64,000 nucleotides of DNA from Paramesorhizobium deserti (GTDB lineage Bacteria; Pseudomonadota; Alphaproteobacteria; Rhizobiales; Rhizobiaceae), in NCBI RefSeq assembly GCF_001558695.1, contig NZ_LNTU01000023.1, forward strand, positions 310,001 to 374,000, in the 5' to 3' direction. Positions 9,285-49,054 of the stretch are shown piece after piece. Both the position numbers and the translations under genes were made by a program. Within the stretch, counting starts at the first letter, position 1, and every line of letters begins with the position of its first letter. Below the pieces are notes generated by a model. That model was given only the letters and a program-made list of their open reading frames with translations, did not search any database and was not told the origin of the DNA.

Positions 9285-10078
9285 AAGCCAAAGCCTTTGT
9301 CATCCATCTCGCACGAGCCGAGGCACGCAAGCCCCAGGTCGAAAAGCTGCTTGAAGAACTCAGCCTGCCGGCGGAGATCATCGATGCGGTAGACGCTGCG
9401 ACATTGTCCGAAGGAGATGTCGATGCCGTCTATCGTGGCAAGCTCCACCGTCCGGCCTATCCTTTCAGGCTGCGCCAGACCGAGATCGCCTGTTTTCTGT
9501 CGCATCGAAGAGCATGGCAGGCAATCGTCGATCAGGATCTTGATGCCGGGCTTGTCGTCGAGGATGATGTGCAGCCCGATGCGCAATGGTTCACGCCGGT
9601 TCTGCTGGTCGCGCTGAAGACGATCCAGCCCCGCGATCTGATCCGCTTTCCCTGCACCGCGCGTGGCGAAAAGGGACCGGTCGTGGCTGAAGAAACCGGC
9701 GCTATATCGATAATCGCGCCGCATTCGCCCGGCCTGGGCATGCAGATGCAGCTGATCGGGCGCGAGGCGGCCGCGCTTCTGCTCGATGTGACGCGGCAAT
9801 TCGATCGTCCCGTGGATACAACGGCCCAGATGCGCTGGATCAATAAGGTGCGTGTCCTTTCCGCCCGTCCGATCTGCATCCGTGAAATTTCGGGGACGCT
9901 TGGCGGCACGGTGGTGCAGAACAAGTCGAAGACGCTGGCCGAGATCGTCAACCGGGAAATCAGGCGGCCGCTCTACCGCGCATCGGTCGCCATTCGCAAC
10001 GCCTTGATCAGAGCATCGGTCAGCCATCTATTCTGCACGGCAGCCATGGCGGAAACGTTGATGGATGGCCTTCTATGA
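9281..10078 (+). CDS. Glycosyltransferase family 25 (LPS biosynthesis)
   Basis: This 265-aa protein starts in an ATGA overlap with lpsB. GT25 signatures are the opening F-V-I-H-L-A-R-A-E-A-R strand, CFLSH at 71-75 and the metal-binding EDD at 94-96. The family contains lipooligosaccharide glycosyltransferases (often galactosyltransferases) that act on nucleotide-sugar donors. The operon position argues for a role in core LPS assembly. The acceptor and sugar cannot be read from sequence. A second GT25 gene lies at about 37.7 kb. Confidence 0.87.
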   Translation: MKAKAFVIHLARAEARKPQVEKLLEELSLPAEIIDAVDAATLSEGDVDAVYRGKLHRPAYPFRLRQTEIACFLSHRRAWQAIVDQDLDAGLVVEDDVQPDAQWFTPVLLVALKTIQPRDLIRFPCTARGEKGPVVAEETGAISIIAPHSPGLGMQMQLIGREAAALLLDVTRQFDRPVDTTAQMRWINKVRVLSARPICIREISGTLGGTVVQNKSKTLAEIVNREIRRPLYRASVAIRNALIRASVSHLFCTAAMAETLMDGLL

Positions 10079-42501: not shown

Positions 42502-43599
42502 TCAGATATCGATCTCTACCGGACCCACCGGGCGGGTGCAACAGGCGAGGATATAGCCTTCACCGATCTCGTCGTCGCGGATGCCGCCATTGTGGTTCAT
42601 CACGGTTTCGCCGCCGCCGCATAAGACCTTGCAGGTGCCGCAGACGCCGAACTCGCAGGCGCTCGGGATCTTCAGTCCCGCGCTGCGGGCGGCCAGGAGA
42701 ATGGTGTCGTCAAGGCCGCATTCCACCTCGACGCCGGACCGGGTGAACCGCACGGTGGCCGTCTGCGGCATTGCGCCGGGATCGTCGCCTGCGGGCGAGG
42801 TTGGCGTTACCACGGTTTCGGCCGCCGGCTGGAAGCTTTCCTGGTGGTAGCGCGCCATGTCGAAGCCCATCGCCTGCAGCGCCTCGCGCACGGCGCGCAT
42901 GAAGGGTTCCGGCCCGCAGCAGAAGACGGTGCGGTCGTTGAAATCGGGCGCAAGCAGTTCCAGCCTCGTTCGGTCGATCCTGCCATGCAAGCCGCTCCAG
43001 GCATGGCGCGGAGAGGATTGTTCGGCGATGAAGGAAAGCTTCAGCGCCGCCATGCGGGCGGCGAGCAATCGCAGCTCGTCATGAAAGATGATCTCATCAG
43101 GACGGCGGGCGCAATTGATGAAGGCGATATCGGTCGCGGGCGCGCAGTCGTGCAGCCAGCGGGTCATCGACATCATAGGCGTGATGCCGGAACCGGCCGA
43201 GATGAAGAGGTATTTCCCGTCCGGGTGGCTCGCCAGGGAAAAATCCCCGGCCGGGCCGTAAGCCCTGATCCGCATGCCCGGCCGCAAATGGTCGAGCATC
43301 CAGCGCGTACCGACAGAGCCTTGCTGCGCCTTGACCGTCACCGCCAGCGAATAGGGGCGTGATGGCGTGGAGGAGAGGGTGTAGGTGCGCATCGCCGGTT
43401 CGGGCGAGACCGGCAGTTCCAGCGTGACGAACTGGCCGGGCGCGTAGCGGAACCAGTTCTGGTCGGGTGTGCGGAAGGAGAAGGTCATGACATCTGGCGC
43501 CTCCTCGACGGCGGCGATGCATTCGAGCATCTGCAGCTTGTCGTTCCAGGGCAGCATCTCGTCGAGGTGCCTTACGGTGTGAGGCGGCATGACACTCAT
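42502..43599 (-). CDS. gbcB: Glycine betaine monooxygenase, reductase subunit
   Basis: This 365-aa three-domain reductase has an FAD domain with R-T-Y-T-L-S-S at 71-77, an NAD(P)H domain (G-S-G-I-T-P-M, C-G-P-E-P-F-M), and a C-terminal plant-type [2Fe-2S] ferredoxin with ligands C315, C320, C323 and C353. It would pass electrons from NADH to the Rieske oxygenase GbcA encoded 23 bp upstream. The assignment rests on this pairing. AAGGA precedes the ATG. Confidence 0.88.
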   Translation of the reverse strand: MSVMPPHTVRHLDEMLPWNDKLQMLECIAAVEEAPDVMTFSFRTPDQNWFRYAPGQFVTLELPVSPEPAMRTYTLSSTPSRPYSLAVTVKAQQGSVGTRWMLDHLRPGMRIRAYGPAGDFSLASHPDGKYLFISAGSGITPMMSMTRWLHDCAPATDIAFINCARRPDEIIFHDELRLLAARMAALKLSFIAEQSSPRHAWSGLHGRIDRTRLELLAPDFNDRTVFCCGPEPFMRAVREALQAMGFDMARYHQESFQPAAETVVTPTSPAGDDPGAMPQTATVRFTRSGVEVECGLDDTILLAARSAGLKIPSACEFGVCGTCKVLCGGGETVMNHNGGIRDDEIGEGYILACCTRPVGPVEIDI

Positions 43600-43622: not shown

Positions 43623-44867
43623 CTATGCGACCCGGCTGAGCGGTACAGCTTCGCCCTCCAGGCGGGGCGTGATGAAATTCGCGTACCACTCGACAAACTG
43701 CATCACGCCGCCCTCATGCTCGACCGAATAGGGGCCTGGCTGATAGACGGGCGATTTGATGCCGACGGCATTCTCCTCGACGATGCGGCGATCCTGGTCG
43801 TTGGTCTCGATCCAGACATGGGTCAGTTCGTGGAGGTCGTAGTCGACGCCCTCGACGGCATCCTTGTTGACCAGCCATTTGGTGGTGACCTGGGTTTCAT
43901 CGGCGCTGATCGGCAGCACGCGGAAGGAGATCGCGTGGTCGCCGAGGACGTGGTTCCAGCTCGAGGGGTAGTGGAACAGGAGCATCGTGCCGATATGGCT
44001 TTCGGTGATGCTGGGGCTCAGAGGCTTCTTCACCGCGCGTTTTCCCGAAAGCGTGTAGCTCTCGGCGTCGCGCAGGAGCGGCACGCGGGTGATGCGGTAC
44101 TGCCCGTCTGGCGCCATCCTGAAGGTGGAGGGCAGGCCGACCGCCTCGCATTTTCGCCACAGGGCGGTGATCTCGGGGTCGTCCATCAACCCCTGCACGC
44201 CTGATGCCGTCGGCGCCTCGGGATAGGTGCGGCAGAGCTCGGGATGGTTGGCCGCGCAATGATAGCATTCGCGATTGTTTTCCCAGACCAGCTTCCAGTT
44301 GCCCTTCTCAATGATGGTGCTCTCATAGGCCACCTTGGTTTCGCCAAGGCGATGCGGTGCAAGATAGGGCTCGATCGTGGCGCGCGTTGCCGCGAAATCC
44401 GGCGCCTCTTCCGCGATACAGATGAAGATATAACCGGCGACGCTCTCGCAATGGACCGGCTTCAGGCCGTATTGGGCCGGGTTGAAATCCGGGCCGACCT
44501 GGCGAGCGAAGAGCAGTCGGCCGTCGAGCTCATAGGTCCACTGGTGATAGGGGCAGACGAGTTTCGCCGCTGTTCCCCTTTCGGCCGAACAGATGCGCGA
44601 GCCGCGGTGACGGCAGGAATTGTGGAAGGCGCGGATGCCGCCTTGCGCGTCGCGCACCACCACCACGGGATAGGCGCCGATCTGCACCGTCAGATAGCTG
44701 CCGGTCTTCGGCAATTCGCAATCATGGCCGACGAAAAGCCATTCGCGATAGAAGATGTGCTCCAGATCCAGCTTGAAATAATCGGGATCGGTGTAGAACT
44801 TCTGCTCCAGGCTGAAATTGGCATTGCGCCCCTTCAGATATCCCAGCATTTCACTACGAACGTCCAT
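43623..44867 (-). CDS. gbcA: Glycine betaine monooxygenase, Rieske oxygenase subunit
   Basis: This 414-aa ring-hydroxylase-type oxygenase has Rieske ligands C85/H87 and C105/H108, followed by the mononuclear iron region N-N-R-E-C-Y-H-C-A-A-N-H. The C-terminal block T-T-K-W-L-V-N-K-D-A-V-E-G-V-D-Y-D and Y-Q-P-G-P-Y-S closely resembles GbcA of Pseudomonas as I recall it. The enzyme demethylates glycine betaine to dimethylglycine and formaldehyde. Its leader carries a cobalamin riboswitch, so B12 probably represses the operon. Stachydrine-type Rieske demethylases are the main alternative identity. Confidence 0.87.
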   Translation of the reverse strand: MDVRSEMLGYLKGRNANFSLEQKFYTDPDYFKLDLEHIFYREWLFVGHDCELPKTGSYLTVQIGAYPVVVVRDAQGGIRAFHNSCRHRGSRICSAERGTAAKLVCPYHQWTYELDGRLLFARQVGPDFNPAQYGLKPVHCESVAGYIFICIAEEAPDFAATRATIEPYLAPHRLGETKVAYESTIIEKGNWKLVWENNRECYHCAANHPELCRTYPEAPTASGVQGLMDDPEITALWRKCEAVGLPSTFRMAPDGQYRITRVPLLRDAESYTLSGKRAVKKPLSPSITESHIGTMLLFHYPSSWNHVLGDHAISFRVLPISADETQVTTKWLVNKDAVEGVDYDLHELTHVWIETNDQDRRIVEENAVGIKSPVYQPGPYSVEHEGGVMQFVEWYANFITPRLEGEAVPLSRVA

Positions 44868-44997: not shown

Positions 44998-45180
44998 CGA
45001 ATTTGTCCTTCAGGCTGGTTTCCGGGCTTCGGAGCGATCCTTGCGGATGATTGCGGCACCTTCCCAGGCTTAACGCCCAGTGGTCTTATCGCCGCGTTCC
45101 AACTCCATTACCGTTGCGGGGGCAGCATCGGTTTCCCACCGATTTCCCAATTATCGCCATCCCTAGAATGGCAGCACCTG
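44998..45180 (-). promoter_or_regulatory. Cobalamin (adenosylcobalamin-type) riboswitch
   Basis: Reading the minus strand, the conserved blocks appear in order. They are GGGAAATCGGTGGGAAACCG and GCTGCCCCC (45148-45118), GCAACGGTAAT (45117-45107), CCACTGGGC (45083-45075), GGGAAGG (45065-45059), and the B12 box GCCCGGAAACCAGCC (45027-45013). This is the RF00174 architecture. The only downstream gene on this strand is gbcA, 130 nt further on. No U-tract terminator follows, so the switch may act on translation or through Rho. Confidence 0.93.
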
Positions 45181-45371
45181 AACGCCATGATCTAACCAGC
45201 GGGCGGTTCGTCGCGCTCATGCAGAAACGACATCGGCTTCACGCAAAGACGACACGGTTCACGAATAAGGGAATGTGGCATTCGTCACACTTTTAGGATT
45301 GTCATCGGGGTGGGAAGACGGCTACCACACCGTATCCCGCGTTATGGTTCCCGCATGGGAGGAAAAACTTC
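45181..45371. other. Promoter region between the riboswitch and lyxA
   Basis: No gene is supported. It must contain the minus-strand promoter of the riboswitch-gbcAB transcript and the plus-strand promoter of the isomerase gene. I could not single out either. Confidence 0.4.
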
Positions 45372-46138: not shown

Positions 46139-47188
46139 ATGGGATGGGAACCGCGTGCCGATCGATACGACACGATGAAATACAATCGCTGCGGACGCAG
46201 CGGCCTGCATCTGCCGGCGATCTCGCTGGGCCTGTGGCACAATTTCGGCGATGATACGCCGCATGCGACGAAGCAGACGCTCTGCCGCACGGCTTTCGAT
46301 CTCGGCATCAATCATTTCGACCTCGCCAACAATTACGGTCCGCCTCCGGGTTCGGCAGAGATCGCCTTCGGCCGCATCCTGCGCGAGGATTTCCACAGGC
46401 TTCGCGATGAGCTGATCATCTCGTCGAAGGCGGGTTACCGCATGTGGCCAGGCCCTCATGGCGAATGGGGCAGCCGCAAATATCTGATCGCAAGCTGCGA
46501 CCAGAGCCTGAAGCGGCTTGGGCTGGATTATGTCGACATCTTCTATTCGCACCGCTTCGATCCGGAGACGCCGCTGGAGGAGACCATGCAGGCGCTCGAC
46601 CACATCGTGCGCTCGGGCCGGGCGCTCTATGTCGGCATTTCCTCCTACAATTCGAAGCGCACGCGCGAGGCCATGGCGATTCTGGAGGAACTCGGCACGC
46701 CTTGCGTGATCCACCAGCCTAGCTACTCCATGATCAATCGCTGGATCGAGGAGGATGGTCTGGTCGACACGCTCGAGGAACTCGGCATCGGCTCCATCGC
46801 GTTCACACCGCTGGCGCAGGGCATGCTGACATCGAAATATCTCAAGGGAATTCCTGAGGAGAGCCGTGCGGCACAGGGCAAGTCGCTGAGGACCGAGTTC
46901 ATCAACGAGGCGACGATCGCGCGTATTCGCGGGCTCAACGATATCGCGGCCAGGCGCGGGCAGACGCTGGCGCAGATGGCGCTCGCCTGGGTGCTGCGCG
47001 GCGGGCGCGTCACCTCCGCCCTGATCGGAGCCAGCCGCCCCGAACAGATAGCCGATTGCGTCAAGGCGCTGGAAAAACCTGATTTCACCGAGGCAGAACT
47101 GCGCGAGATCGACAAATTTGCCCAGGATGCCGACGTCAACCTTTGGGCAGCTTCAGCCGAGCGGCCGGGACCCGAGCGGAAGCATTGA
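46139..47188 (+). CDS. Aldo/keto reductase, YghZ/Gpr type
   Basis: This 349-aa TIM-barrel reductase starts after AAAGGAA. It closely follows E. coli Gpr (YghZ) in L-H-L-P-A-I-S-L-G-L-W-H-N-F-G-D, N-N-Y-G-P-P-P-G-S-A-E and S-S-K-A-G-Y-R-M-W. The catalytic Asp, Tyr, Lys and His of the family are all visible. YghZ reduces L-glyceraldehyde 3-phosphate and methylglyoxal with NADPH, so an aldehyde-detoxifying role is likely. An 8-bp G+C hairpin (47199-47222) follows without a clear T-run. Confidence 0.9.
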   Translation: MGWEPRADRYDTMKYNRCGRSGLHLPAISLGLWHNFGDDTPHATKQTLCRTAFDLGINHFDLANNYGPPPGSAEIAFGRILREDFHRLRDELIISSKAGYRMWPGPHGEWGSRKYLIASCDQSLKRLGLDYVDIFYSHRFDPETPLEETMQALDHIVRSGRALYVGISSYNSKRTREAMAILEELGTPCVIHQPSYSMINRWIEEDGLVDTLEELGIGSIAFTPLAQGMLTSKYLKGIPEESRAAQGKSLRTEFINEATIARIRGLNDIAARRGQTLAQMALAWVLRGGRVTSALIGASRPEQIADCVKALEKPDFTEAELREIDKFAQDADVNLWAASAERPGPERKH

Positions 47189-47239: not shown

Positions 47240-47360
47240 CGTTATTGCGGTGGAGAGGTTGAGGAATGGATTCCAGTGACAAGCACTGGAATGACGGAAG
47301 ATTGGCTGTTGAGCGACAATCTTCAACCTCTTTGCCTGCAAAACGGTTCTTGATGTGGCG
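47240..47360. repeat. Intergenic repeat element, left half only
   Basis: The segment matches the complete element at 31.65-31.83 kb from GGTGGAGAGG through the arm at 47260-47298 and on to CTTCAACCT and AACGGTTC near 47345. It then diverges, where the complete copy continues for about 30 bp to its right arm. The missing right half appears 1.3 kb away at 48625-48700. Confidence 0.75.
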
Positions 47361-47367
47361 CGGCGAC

Positions 47368-47401
47368 AGCTTCTGGACAAATTTGCATTAGCTTCTGGAC
47401 A
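47368..47401. repeat. Left inner repeats of the Cys-rich peptide cassette
   Basis: AGCTTCTGGACA occurs twice, at 47368-47379 and 47390-47401, start to start 22 bp. The inverted word TGTCCAGAAG occurs twice at the other end (48470-48479 and 48605-48614). Multiple repeats at both ends recall the termini of IS21-family elements, but no transposase is present. Confidence 0.6.
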
Positions 47402-47420
47402 GCAAAACTAGATGCGAGGA

Positions 47421-47446
47421 AACCCCGCCACAAAGGCAGCGGGGTT
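47421..47446 (-). terminator. Terminator after Cys-rich peptide gene 1
   Basis: Minus strand AACCCCGC, a 10-nt loop, GCGGGGTT, then TCC. The T-run is short. Confidence 0.6.
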
Positions 47447-47461
47447 CGTTTCAATGAGACG

Positions 47462-47668
47462 CTAGATGCAGTGACAAGTGCCGTTTGCGCAGATCCCGCC
47501 CAAATAGCCATTTTCGATGCAGTAGGATGCGCATGACACCGAGTTGCAAGCTGCAGCAACCGGCCCCGCGCCGATCAACAGCGCGAACGCTGCGATAGTC
47601 AATTTCCGGCGCAGCGAAGTGGCCCTGAAGGCATCGGCAAGTTTCGGCAGTGTGGTCATTGCAAGCAT
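47462..47668 (-). CDS. Secreted six-cysteine, defensin-like peptide 1
   Basis: A 68-aa precursor starts at 47668 with GGAGGG at 6 nt. Residues 1-40 form a basic then hydrophobic leader (S-L-R-R-K-L-T-I-A-A-F-A-L-L, ending P-V-A-A-A) suited to signal peptidase I. The mature part of about 29 residues has Cys at 41, 46, 50, 60, 65 and 67 (C-x4-C-x3-C-x9-C-x4-C-x-C). It also has N-G-Y-L-G-G-I-C, a gamma-core-like GxC. The C-x3-C...C-x-C spacing is that of CS-alpha/beta defensins. The mature peptide is not cationic (net about -1). Function is unknown; it is the last of three tandem paralogues. Confidence 0.8.
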   Translation of the reverse strand: MLAMTTLPKLADAFRATSLRRKLTIAAFALLIGAGPVAAACNSVSCASYCIENGYLGGICANGTCHCI

Positions 47669-47709
47669 GGTATCCCTCCGTGACAGCGGGGCTCGGTTTC
47701 AGCTAACGG

Positions 47710-47919
47710 CTAGAAGCAGTGGCAAGCGCCGTCAGCGCCGCAGGTCCCGTCTAAATAGCCTCTTTGGATGCAAGTGGCGATGCAAGTCACCGGGTTGCAG
47801 GCTGCAGCAACCGGCCCCGCGCCCATCAGCAGCGCGAACGCTGCGATAGTCAATTTCCGGCGCAGCGAGGTGGCCCTGAAGGCATCGGCAAGTTTCGGCA
47901 GTGTGGTCATTGCAAGCAT
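47710..47919 (-). CDS. Secreted six-cysteine, defensin-like peptide 2
   Basis: This 69-aa precursor starts at 47919 with GGAGGG. Its first 40 residues differ from peptide 1 at one position only, while the mature part is about half identical. Cysteines are at 41, 46, 50, 60, 66 and 68 (C-x4-C-x3-C-x9-C-x5-C-x-C) around R-G-Y-L-D-G-T-C. The longer reading frame starting at 48015 lacks a ribosome-binding site and is discarded. It is 42 bp from peptide 1 with no full terminator between, so both may share a transcript. Confidence 0.8.
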   Translation of the reverse strand: MLAMTTLPKLADAFRATSLRRKLTIAAFALLMGAGPVAAACNPVTCIATCIQRGYLDGTCGADGACHCF

Positions 47920-48046
47920 GGTTTCCCTCCAAATGTTGAAGCGCCGGCCCATGGGCGTGGCGCGGGTGATCCCCCTTCTTTGCGGCCGGTGCCGGCAGGC
48001 CGGCACGGGCGACACCTCGCGGCCGGGAAGACCGGCAGGCGATGCT

Positions 48047-48078
48047 GAAAAGCCCCGCCGCCGAGGCAGCGGAGCTTC
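48047..48078 (-). terminator. Terminator after Cys-rich peptide gene 3
   Basis: Minus strand AAGCTCCGC, a loop, GCGGGGCTTTTC (one G-U pair). It lies 15 bp after the stop of peptide 3. Confidence 0.65.
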
Positions 48079-48092
48079 CTTTCACGCACAGA

Positions 48093-48302
48093 CTATGAAT
48101 TGCATATGCAGTACTGTCCCATGCATGTGCCGCCGGAATAGCCCATAGATAAGCACATGTCGCGGCAAGCCGGGTTAGTGCACGCCGCCCAAGCGGCACC
48201 GGTACTCAGAAGCAACGCGGCTCCTGCGGTTATCAGTTTCCGGCGACGATTGGCGATGAAGGCACGCAGTGAGAAGTTCGGCAGTGTCGAAGTCGCAAAC
48301 AT
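48093..48302 (-). CDS. Secreted six-cysteine, defensin-like peptide 3
   Basis: The start at 48302 (69 aa) is chosen because GGGGGA lies 6 nt upstream, as in the sister genes; ATG 48314 has no site. The leader (A-N-R-R-R-K-L-I-T-A-G-A-A-L-L, ending A-A-W-A-A) is clearly related but diverged. Cysteines fall at the same positions as in peptide 1 (41, 46, 50, 60, 65, 67), around M-G-Y-S-G-G-T-C. The mature peptide is near neutral. It is promoter-proximal in the array. Alternatives to a toxin or antimicrobial are a signal peptide or protease inhibitor. Confidence 0.78.
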   Translation of the reverse strand: MFATSTLPNFSLRAFIANRRRKLITAGAALLLSTGAAWAACTNPACRDMCLSMGYSGGTCMGQYCICNS

Positions 48303-48413
48303 TGTTTCCCCCATTGATGAAAAGGGACCATATGACAGCCCCGAGCAGCGTCGGCTCTCTCCCCCTCCTTCTCGGGTGACGCATAACCGGAAGGACCTGA
48401 GCAATGTACGGGC

Positions 48414-48443
48414 GTTTTATGACGGCGGCAACGCGCTTGACAG
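48414..48443 (-). promoter_or_regulatory. Putative promoter of the Cys-rich peptide array
   Basis: Minus strand CTGTCA (48443-48438), 18-bp spacer, TAAAAC (48419-48414). Both hexamers are partial matches, and this is the best candidate upstream of peptide 3. A leader of about 100 nt would follow. Confidence 0.35.
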
Positions 48444-48469
48444 AACAATGCGGGAAGAATGCGCGAATC

Positions 48470-48614
48470 TGTCCAGAAGGTTGCGCACTTTGCCGTCAGT
48501 TTTTGCCGCTAATTTTCATGCGCCGTTCCGCTGGCGTTAGCGGACAGGGCGGCGTTTCTCATTGTTTTTCAAAGGGCTGCGGGCGTTCGATCTGGATTGC
48601 TCCGTGTCCAGAAG
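48470..48614. repeat. Right inner repeats of the Cys-rich peptide cassette
   Basis: TGTCCAGAAG occurs at 48470-48479 and 48605-48614. The inward-reading sequence from the first copy (CTTCTGGACA, then GATT, CGC, GCATT) resembles the left end (CTTCTGGACA, then AATT, TG, CATT), giving an imperfect inverted repeat of about 20 bp around the peptide genes. The stretch between the two words holds no gene I can support. Confidence 0.5.
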
Positions 48615-48624
48615 GTAACACCCC

Positions 48625-48700
48625 CCTACAGTTCATCCCCACCTCGTCTTCCCAGTGCTTGTCACTGGGATCCATGCCTCAACGGTGCCGCGGTTGCTAT
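48625..48700. repeat. Intergenic repeat element, right half only
   Basis: The right arm lies at 48642-48681 and continues into CAACGGTGCCGC, matching the right flank of the complete copy at 31.8 kb. Within the inner hairpin a T-A pair is replaced by C-G on both strands (CCCAGTG / CACTGGG), a compensatory change that keeps the stem. Confidence 0.75.
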
Positions 48701-48724: not shown

Positions 48725-49054
48725 TTAGTCGACCTTCGTAACCGCCTTCTTCTCGTTGGCGATCAGCCAGAGATTGCGGATATAGATGAAGAGGCCCATG
48801 CCCTGGCCGGCGATGAAGACGGGGTCCTCGCGCTGGATGGCGTAGACGAGAAGCATCGTACCGCCGCCGAGCGAGAAGAACCAGAAGGCGACGGGCACGA
48901 CGCTGCGCCTTGCCCGCTCGGATGCGATCCACTGCACCACGAAGCGCATGCTGAAGCAGATCTGGGCAACGAAGCCCAAAATCACCCAGGCGTCGAGCTG
49001 CTTGACGAAAACATCGTGAAACCAGGTCGCCAGTTGAGCGAACAAATCAGCCAT
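48725..49054 (-). CDS. Lipid-A-disaccharide synthase N-terminal-like (LAB_N) membrane protein
   Basis: This 109-aa protein has three hydrophobic helices and matches the LAB_N domain: L-G-F-V-A-Q-I-C-F-S-M-R-F-V-V-Q-W, then P-V-A-F-W-F-F-S-L-G-G and Y-I-R-N-L-W-L-I. Despite the name, stand-alone LAB_N proteins are not LpxB. They usually accompany GT2 glycosyltransferases in polyprenyl-phosphate-sugar pathways. Its start overlaps the end of the upstream GT2 gene by 8 bp, supporting a shared role in envelope glycosylation. Confidence 0.88.
   Translation of the reverse strand: MADLFAQLATWFHDVFVKQLDAWVILGFVAQICFSMRFVVQWIASERARRSVVPVAFWFFSLGGGTMLLVYAIQREDPVFIAGQGMGLFIYIRNLWLIANEKKAVTKVD

Follow-up and report, generated by a model that had tools for sequence, protein, structure and literature searches.

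What do three adjoining small genes with cysteine-rich products encode in the genome of Paramesorhizobium deserti, how did they come to lie where they do, and what might their products be for? The genes are found within a window of 64,000 nucleotides (assembly GCF_001558695.1, contig NZ_LNTU01000023.1, positions 310,001 to 374,000 of the forward strand), which is the whole stretch of DNA that was analysed and to which all coordinates refer unless another sequence is named. Peptides of this kind have been classified before: according to the accessible text of Cardoso et al. 2024 (PMC11561630), 74 bacterial cis-defensins are grouped into five classes, and class I comprises 20 members, three of them from ‘Paramesorhizobium desertii’. 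Class I peptides are described there as secreted, with a short loop between the first and second cysteines (the n loop) and with one to four residues ahead of Cys1.

Three adjoining genes and their precursors

The three genes, here referred to as P1, P2 and P3, are located on the minus strand of the window and encode precursors of 68, 69 and 69 residues (Table 1). The leaders, of about 40 residues, contain an invariant RRKL followed by a hydrophobic stretch and, as judged by eye, an A-x-A-type end; if cleavage at this site is assumed, one or two residues precede Cys1. The tails carry cysteines at positions 41, 46, 50, 60, 65/66 and 67/68, giving a full framework of C-x4-C-x3-C-x9-C-x4/5-C-x-C with a G-x-C turn at cysteine 4, and the mature parts carry net charges (K/R minus D/E) of -1, -1 and 0. 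The initial annotation had described three minus-strand genes with these precursor lengths and cysteine positions, a leader with a basic patch and a hydrophobic core, the C-x3-C-x9-C-x4/5-C-x-C spacing with its GxC turn, and mature parts that are neutral to slightly acidic; all of this was recovered on re-derivation, and we add the x4 spacing between Cys1 and Cys2. Read in six frames, the window contains three matches to a loose six-cysteine pattern, all of them within P1-P3, and 60 simulated windows built from its first-order base transitions contain none. In all three genes, a purine-rich, Shine-Dalgarno-like stretch is separated from the ATG by a gap of 4-5 bases.

Table 1. Features of the locus, in window coordinates
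Feature	Position	Strand	Remarks
Left partner of split palindromic repeat dimer	47258..47296	+	39-nt arm; arms 90% complementary
Block with three genes	47341..48632	.	1,292 bp; ~25 nt repeat-dimer spacer at syntenic RMAD-H1 site
Outer limits of four TTCTGGACA / TGTCCAGAA copies	47371..48613	.	starts 47371, 47393, 48470, 48605
Terminator-like 12-bp hairpin after P1	47420..47447	-	fold -19.7 kcal/mol, 56-base stretch
Defensin-like precursor P1	47462..47668	-	68 aa; ~40-aa leader and six-Cys tail
Shine-Dalgarno-like GGAGGG of P1	47674..47679	-	read from sequence
Defensin-like precursor P2	47710..47919	-	69 aa; 39/40 leader residues as in P1, tail diverged
Shine-Dalgarno-like GGAGGG of P2	47925..47930	-	read from sequence
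Terminator-like 13-pair hairpin after P3	48049..48078	-	three G-U pairs, ends in T-run; fold -29.6 kcal/mol, 61-base stretch
Defensin-like precursor P3	48093..48302	-	69 aa; precursor-wide identity to P1 38%
Shine-Dalgarno-like GGGGGA of P3	48307..48312	-	read from sequence
Right partner of split palindromic repeat dimer	48645..48683	-	39-nt arm, inverted to left one

P1 and P2 form a tandem duplicate (a 192-nt repeat at a spacing of 251 nt, with 89% identity). Their leaders differ by one nonsynonymous and three synonymous changes in 40 codons, and their tails by 15 nonsynonymous and six synonymous changes in 28 aligned codons, the extra Gly codon of P2 being left out. Positive selection on the tails, which was considered, is not shown by these counts (tail dN/dS ~0.6). 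Synonymous changes between the two genes, too, are more frequent in the tails than in the leaders (Fisher P 0.0497), and homogenisation of the leaders would fit the pattern as well as diversification of the tails.

Strong hairpins follow P1 and P3 and none follows P2, from which we infer that P2 and P1 may be expressed as one transcript and P3 as another. A consensus terminator scan found two candidates against a shuffle mean of 2.2, which is no excess; it picked up only a smaller stem overlapping the P1 hairpin and did not list the P3 hairpin. No sigma-70-type promoter was found in a promoter scan.

Assignment to the CS-alpha/beta defensins

The initial annotation had proposed that the genes encode CS-alpha/beta defensin-type secreted peptides and had suggested profile searches against the corresponding families as a check. 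In these searches defensin and toxin families are indeed matched, at scores below the curated Pfam cut-offs: P1 matches Toxin_2 (E 3.9e-4, 21.1 bits against a cut-off of 25.1) and Defensin_2 (E 0.0022, 18.3 bits against 20.4), P3 matches the Defensin family PF24552 (E 4.7e-4, 20.6 bits against 27), P2 reaches at best an E of 0.049 and at most 14.1 bits (cut-off 27), and in the Pfam scan of P1-P3 no score lies above any curated gathering cut-off. We read these scores as probable divergence and not as a lack of relationship. The NCBIfam actinodefensin model NF038042 gives 10.2 bits for P1 and 13.2 bits for P3 against a cut-off of 65, and no match for P2. In phmmer searches of the PDB, P1 finds a defensin (E 1.7e-4) and P3 a scorpion toxin (E 0.0031). 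At an E limit of 1, a profile of four mature peptides, P1-P3 and a homologue from Mesorhizobium sp. RMAD-H1 (see below), matches 44 sequences in the PDB; 42 of them bear the names of defensins, thionins or venom/channel toxins, which we take to share the CS-alpha/beta fold, and the other two are UMP-CMP kinases. The best of these matches is a 31-residue defensin (E 2.5e-5), and the structure of the bacterial peptide AMSIN (2RU0) is matched with an E of 2.3e-4.

All four peptides have the C...C-x3-C...C...C-x-C framework with GxC and, as is characteristic of class I, six cysteines without an extra one; their n loop is x4 or x5. The proposed assignment is thus supported by sequence and profile searches, and it is very probable that P1-P3 encode class I bacterial cis-defensins of the CS-alpha/beta type and that these are exported.

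Compared with invertebrate and fungal defensins (Defensin_2, PF24552), the peptides are alike in cysteine spacing, GxC and a G-Y/F turn, but differ in their short Cys1-Cys2 loop, low charge, bacterial host and sub-cut-off Pfam scores. GXGCP defensins have a Gly-aromatic-Gly-Cys-Pro N-terminus and a His before Cys3, with the Pro found in 80/88 and the His in 72/88 in the accessible text of PMC12284004. Both the GXGCP (lipid II) motif and the His are missing in all four peptides, so that the earlier likening to plectasin-type defensins holds for the cysteine framework and fails for this motif. Scorpion alpha-KTx toxins (Toxin_2) are similar in framework and length, but their KCxN (channel) signature is likewise missing in 4/4 peptides. 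Actifensin and actinomycesin (AMSIN) from Actinomyces are also bacterial CS-alpha/beta peptides; the actifensin precursor has 69 residues, and some of its relatives are multi-copy (PMC6989792, accessible text). As far as described there and in PMC12284004, actifensin carries GXGCP and its genes are mostly found in conserved ABC-transporter operons, whereas P1-P3 lack the motif, have a signal-peptide-like leader and a near-neutral charge, and are without a transporter among nine neighbours.

Published relatives and distribution of homologues

P1-P3 are almost certainly the three class I peptides published for this species in PMC11561630, an identification that rests on species and number, since searches of the P. 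deserti genome gave only these three well-scoring genes (the first returned P1-P3 and two further matches, with E of 0.17 and 0.36, that lack the cysteine pattern, the second returned three). Shared features are the species, the number of sequences, the secreted precursors, the six-cysteine GxC framework and the short N-terminal tail. In our literature search, PMC11561630 alone pairs defensin with Paramesorhizobium; its accessible text mentions the species once (in the legend of Figure 2), and that text was not found to cover the genome context, the repeat insertion or a homologue in RMAD-H1. The initial annotation noted that such peptides are rarely reported in bacteria; with three class I defensins published for the same species, the trio is not supported as a novelty. 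Its idea of a legume symbiont whose peptides mirror the NCR peptides of the host is without support, since desert soil was the source of ‘Paramesorhizobium deserti’ A-3-ET (PMC4850856). When the P. deserti genome was searched for NodA, nothing was returned, but 14 control genomes were equally silent, so that this result does not establish absence. In the accessible text of a further survey (PMC8819291), a related, ancient-invertebrate-type group was found only in actinobacteria and myxobacteria.

Within the genus, homologues are found in two of the six genomes, those of P. deserti and RMAD-H1. The latter encodes a single 68-residue precursor (contig NZ_JACHWN010000001; positions 9650-9856 of the extracted locus L041) that is 42-51% identical to P1-P3 and has a mature part with a net charge of +1. 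A search of the Rhizobiaceae, also suggested in the initial annotation, thus yields a homologue in a second species, but across the family the six-cysteine pattern is limited to 2/394 genomes: at E up to 0.01 and with up to 15 candidates scored per genome, 24/394 match, and a pattern scan around the match found no six-cysteine pattern in the other 22 (the open reading frames of four of these were also read by eye). Draws at the level of the order (397 genomes), class (385) and phylum (398) gave two, five and three further weakly matching genomes, respectively, none with the six-cysteine pattern; the draws overlap, and a loose prefilter precedes scoring, so that weak relatives could be missed. 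RMAD-H1 is not among the matches of these draws and is taken as not drawn. Genome-contig searches for related loci returned none with query P0002 and only RMAD-H1 with query A4, tblastn gave no match in plasmids (queries P0001 and P0003) or phages (P0001), and no relative was found in viral contigs searched with A4. One small frame in another genome (G1256, locus L075) has a defensin-like cysteine spacing with the final C-x-C missing and is probably a chance occurrence.

Proposed export, maturation and function

In the proposed model, the leader would carry the precursor across the inner membrane, most likely via Sec; an invariant RRKL ahead of the hydrophobic core would also be compatible with the Tat route, and Pfam and NCBIfam scans of P1-P3 at E up to 10 contained no Tat model. 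Signal peptidase would then cut at A-x-A directly ahead of Cys1, and the periplasmic Dsb system would form the disulfides C1-C4, C2-C5 and C3-C6; the genome has two DsbB-family matches over the curated cut-off. The resulting peptides of ~29-30 residues would leave the cell and inhibit competing microbes, and the specificities of the three may differ, as their tails vary more than their leaders.

Antagonism of neighbouring microbes appears to be the most likely role, since a tested class I relative acts in this way (accessible text of PMC6989792, PMC12284004 and PMC11561630), and by this analogy we would put it just short of an even chance. For the published relatives actifensin and AMSIN, the activity is directed at Gram-positive bacteria (PMC6989792, PMC12284004, PMC8819291, as far as accessible). 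Two further reports, again from accessible text, count against antagonism: 80% of the bacterial defensins in PMC8819291 are cationic, set against charges of -1, -1 and 0 here, and the class II relative Xanthusin-1 proved to be without antimicrobial activity (PMC11561630). Neither a transporter nor an immunity protein is present among the nine neighbouring proteins examined (42.5-53.8 kb). With this result, the motifs missing in all four peptides and the near-neutral charge, a lipid II mechanism should not be assumed. The explanation as a whole, exported cis-defensins acting against competing microbes, is in our view evenly balanced between being right and wrong.

A different reading of the same observations is that the products are not weapons: they would remain periplasmic or be directed at the producing cell itself, for example as modulators of envelope stress or of the cell wall. 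This would agree with the lack of an exporter or immunity protein among the nine neighbours, the lack of cationic charge and the missing lipid II motif, but the patchy distribution (2/6 genomes in the genus, 2/394 in the family) and the duplication would both be unusual for a housekeeping role, and we consider this reading unlikely. Somewhat less likely again is that soil eukaryotes (amoebae, nematodes or fungi) are the targets, in the manner of channel-blocking or antifungal CS-alpha/beta peptides; Toxin_2 is the best Pfam match of P1 and the profile also matches alpha-KTx structures, but to our knowledge a target is not predictable from similarity inside the CS-alpha/beta superfamily. The absence of the channel-blocker signature KCxN (PMC11561630, accessible text) from all four peptides also speaks against such targets.

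A probable insertion between palindromic repeats

The trio is flanked by an aldo/keto reductase gene (46139-47188) and a LAB_N gene (48725-49054). In five congeners both flank genes lie close together with no defensin pattern between them, and the unmatched stretch between the flanks measures ~25 bp in RMAD-H1, compared with ~98 to 641 bp in the remaining four genomes. In P. deserti, the block with the three genes separates the two partners of a palindromic repeat dimer, and at the syntenic site in RMAD-H1 this dimer is intact and empty. A gain in P. deserti, as opposed to a loss in RMAD-H1, is the direction of change that we infer. The RMAD-H1 defensin gene is found in a different place, beside a tRNA-Pro/tRNA-Arg segment; at 8498-9856 of L041 this segment is inverted relative to five other genomes, with the defensin gene at the junction. 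The G+C content of the block, 0.59 compared with 0.614 for the window, is not unusual (50/314 windows are as low). Inside the block there are four copies of the 9-base TTCTGGACA / TGTCCAGAA, the only ones in the whole window, placed two per side of the trio and inverted, which may delimit the inserted unit or constitute a regulator site.

With one mismatch allowed, the cores of the flanking repeat occur 27 times in forward and 19 times in reverse orientation in the P. deserti genome, compared with none for a reversed control, and the dimer cores are 108-110 nt apart in seven of eight fetched copies, the exact search having missed the second core of the eighth. Dispersed cores of the palindromic dimer thus number 46 here, 70 in one congener (G001), 66 in RMAD-H1 (G005) and 4, 2 and 6 in the other three. 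In the accessible text of PMC3733652, CGTC-type REPs have CGTC at one end, a stem of 8-9 bp and a loop of 4-5 nt, and mostly form head-head dimers. Compared by description, the flanking repeat is alike in its tag, 8-bp stem and 5-nt loop, but its tags face inward, forming a tail-tail dimer of a kind described there as rare in CGTC families, and we therefore hold back a CGTC-type assignment.

Could the block be without a function at present, as selfish or degenerating cargo that travels along with palindromic repeats or from one to another? Its position inside a repeat dimer that is unbroken and has no insert in RMAD-H1, and the separate location of the RMAD-H1 copy, beside a segment whose orientation is reversed compared with five congeners, would suit this explanation, but all four reading frames are intact and their cysteines conserved even though identity is only ~38-51% in five of the six pairs (P1-P2 81%), and ribosome-site-like stretches are retained, which makes it improbable. 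It is highly improbable, in spite of their small size and of Pfam scores under the curated cut-offs, that P1-P3 are reading frames open by chance or encode cysteine-rich peptides that bind metals and have no relation to defensins, given a pattern seen in 0/60 simulated windows, the PDB profile matches, the framework in 4/4 peptides and a homologue in a second species.

Elsewhere in the window, a cobalamin riboswitch (RF00174, 105 bits) is matched at 45000-45196 on the minus strand, the match being cut at 45000, where the searched stretch begins. It lies upstream of genes for a Rieske ring-hydroxylating oxygenase (43623-44867) and a ferredoxin-type reductase (42502-43599). A Rieske oxygenase/reductase pair is an unusual target for a B12 switch, if the riboswitch controls them.

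Implications

The peptides themselves are almost certainly already in print, and what is added here is modest, namely the probable insertion at the repeat dimer, the homologue in RMAD-H1 and the absence of the motifs. It is conceivable, though in our opinion doubtful, that the rhizobial peptides constitute a functional branch apart from the lipid II-binding GXGCP peptides, the insect group with XTCD and the channel blockers, one that is near neutral in charge, without dedicated transport or immunity genes, more constant in its leaders than in its tails, and gained as small blocks of genes at palindromic repeats and other points of rearrangement. The trio provides independent confirmation of defensin-type peptides in Alphaproteobacteria, and their function becomes testable through the genome context, the occurrence in a second species and the lack of the lipid II motif.
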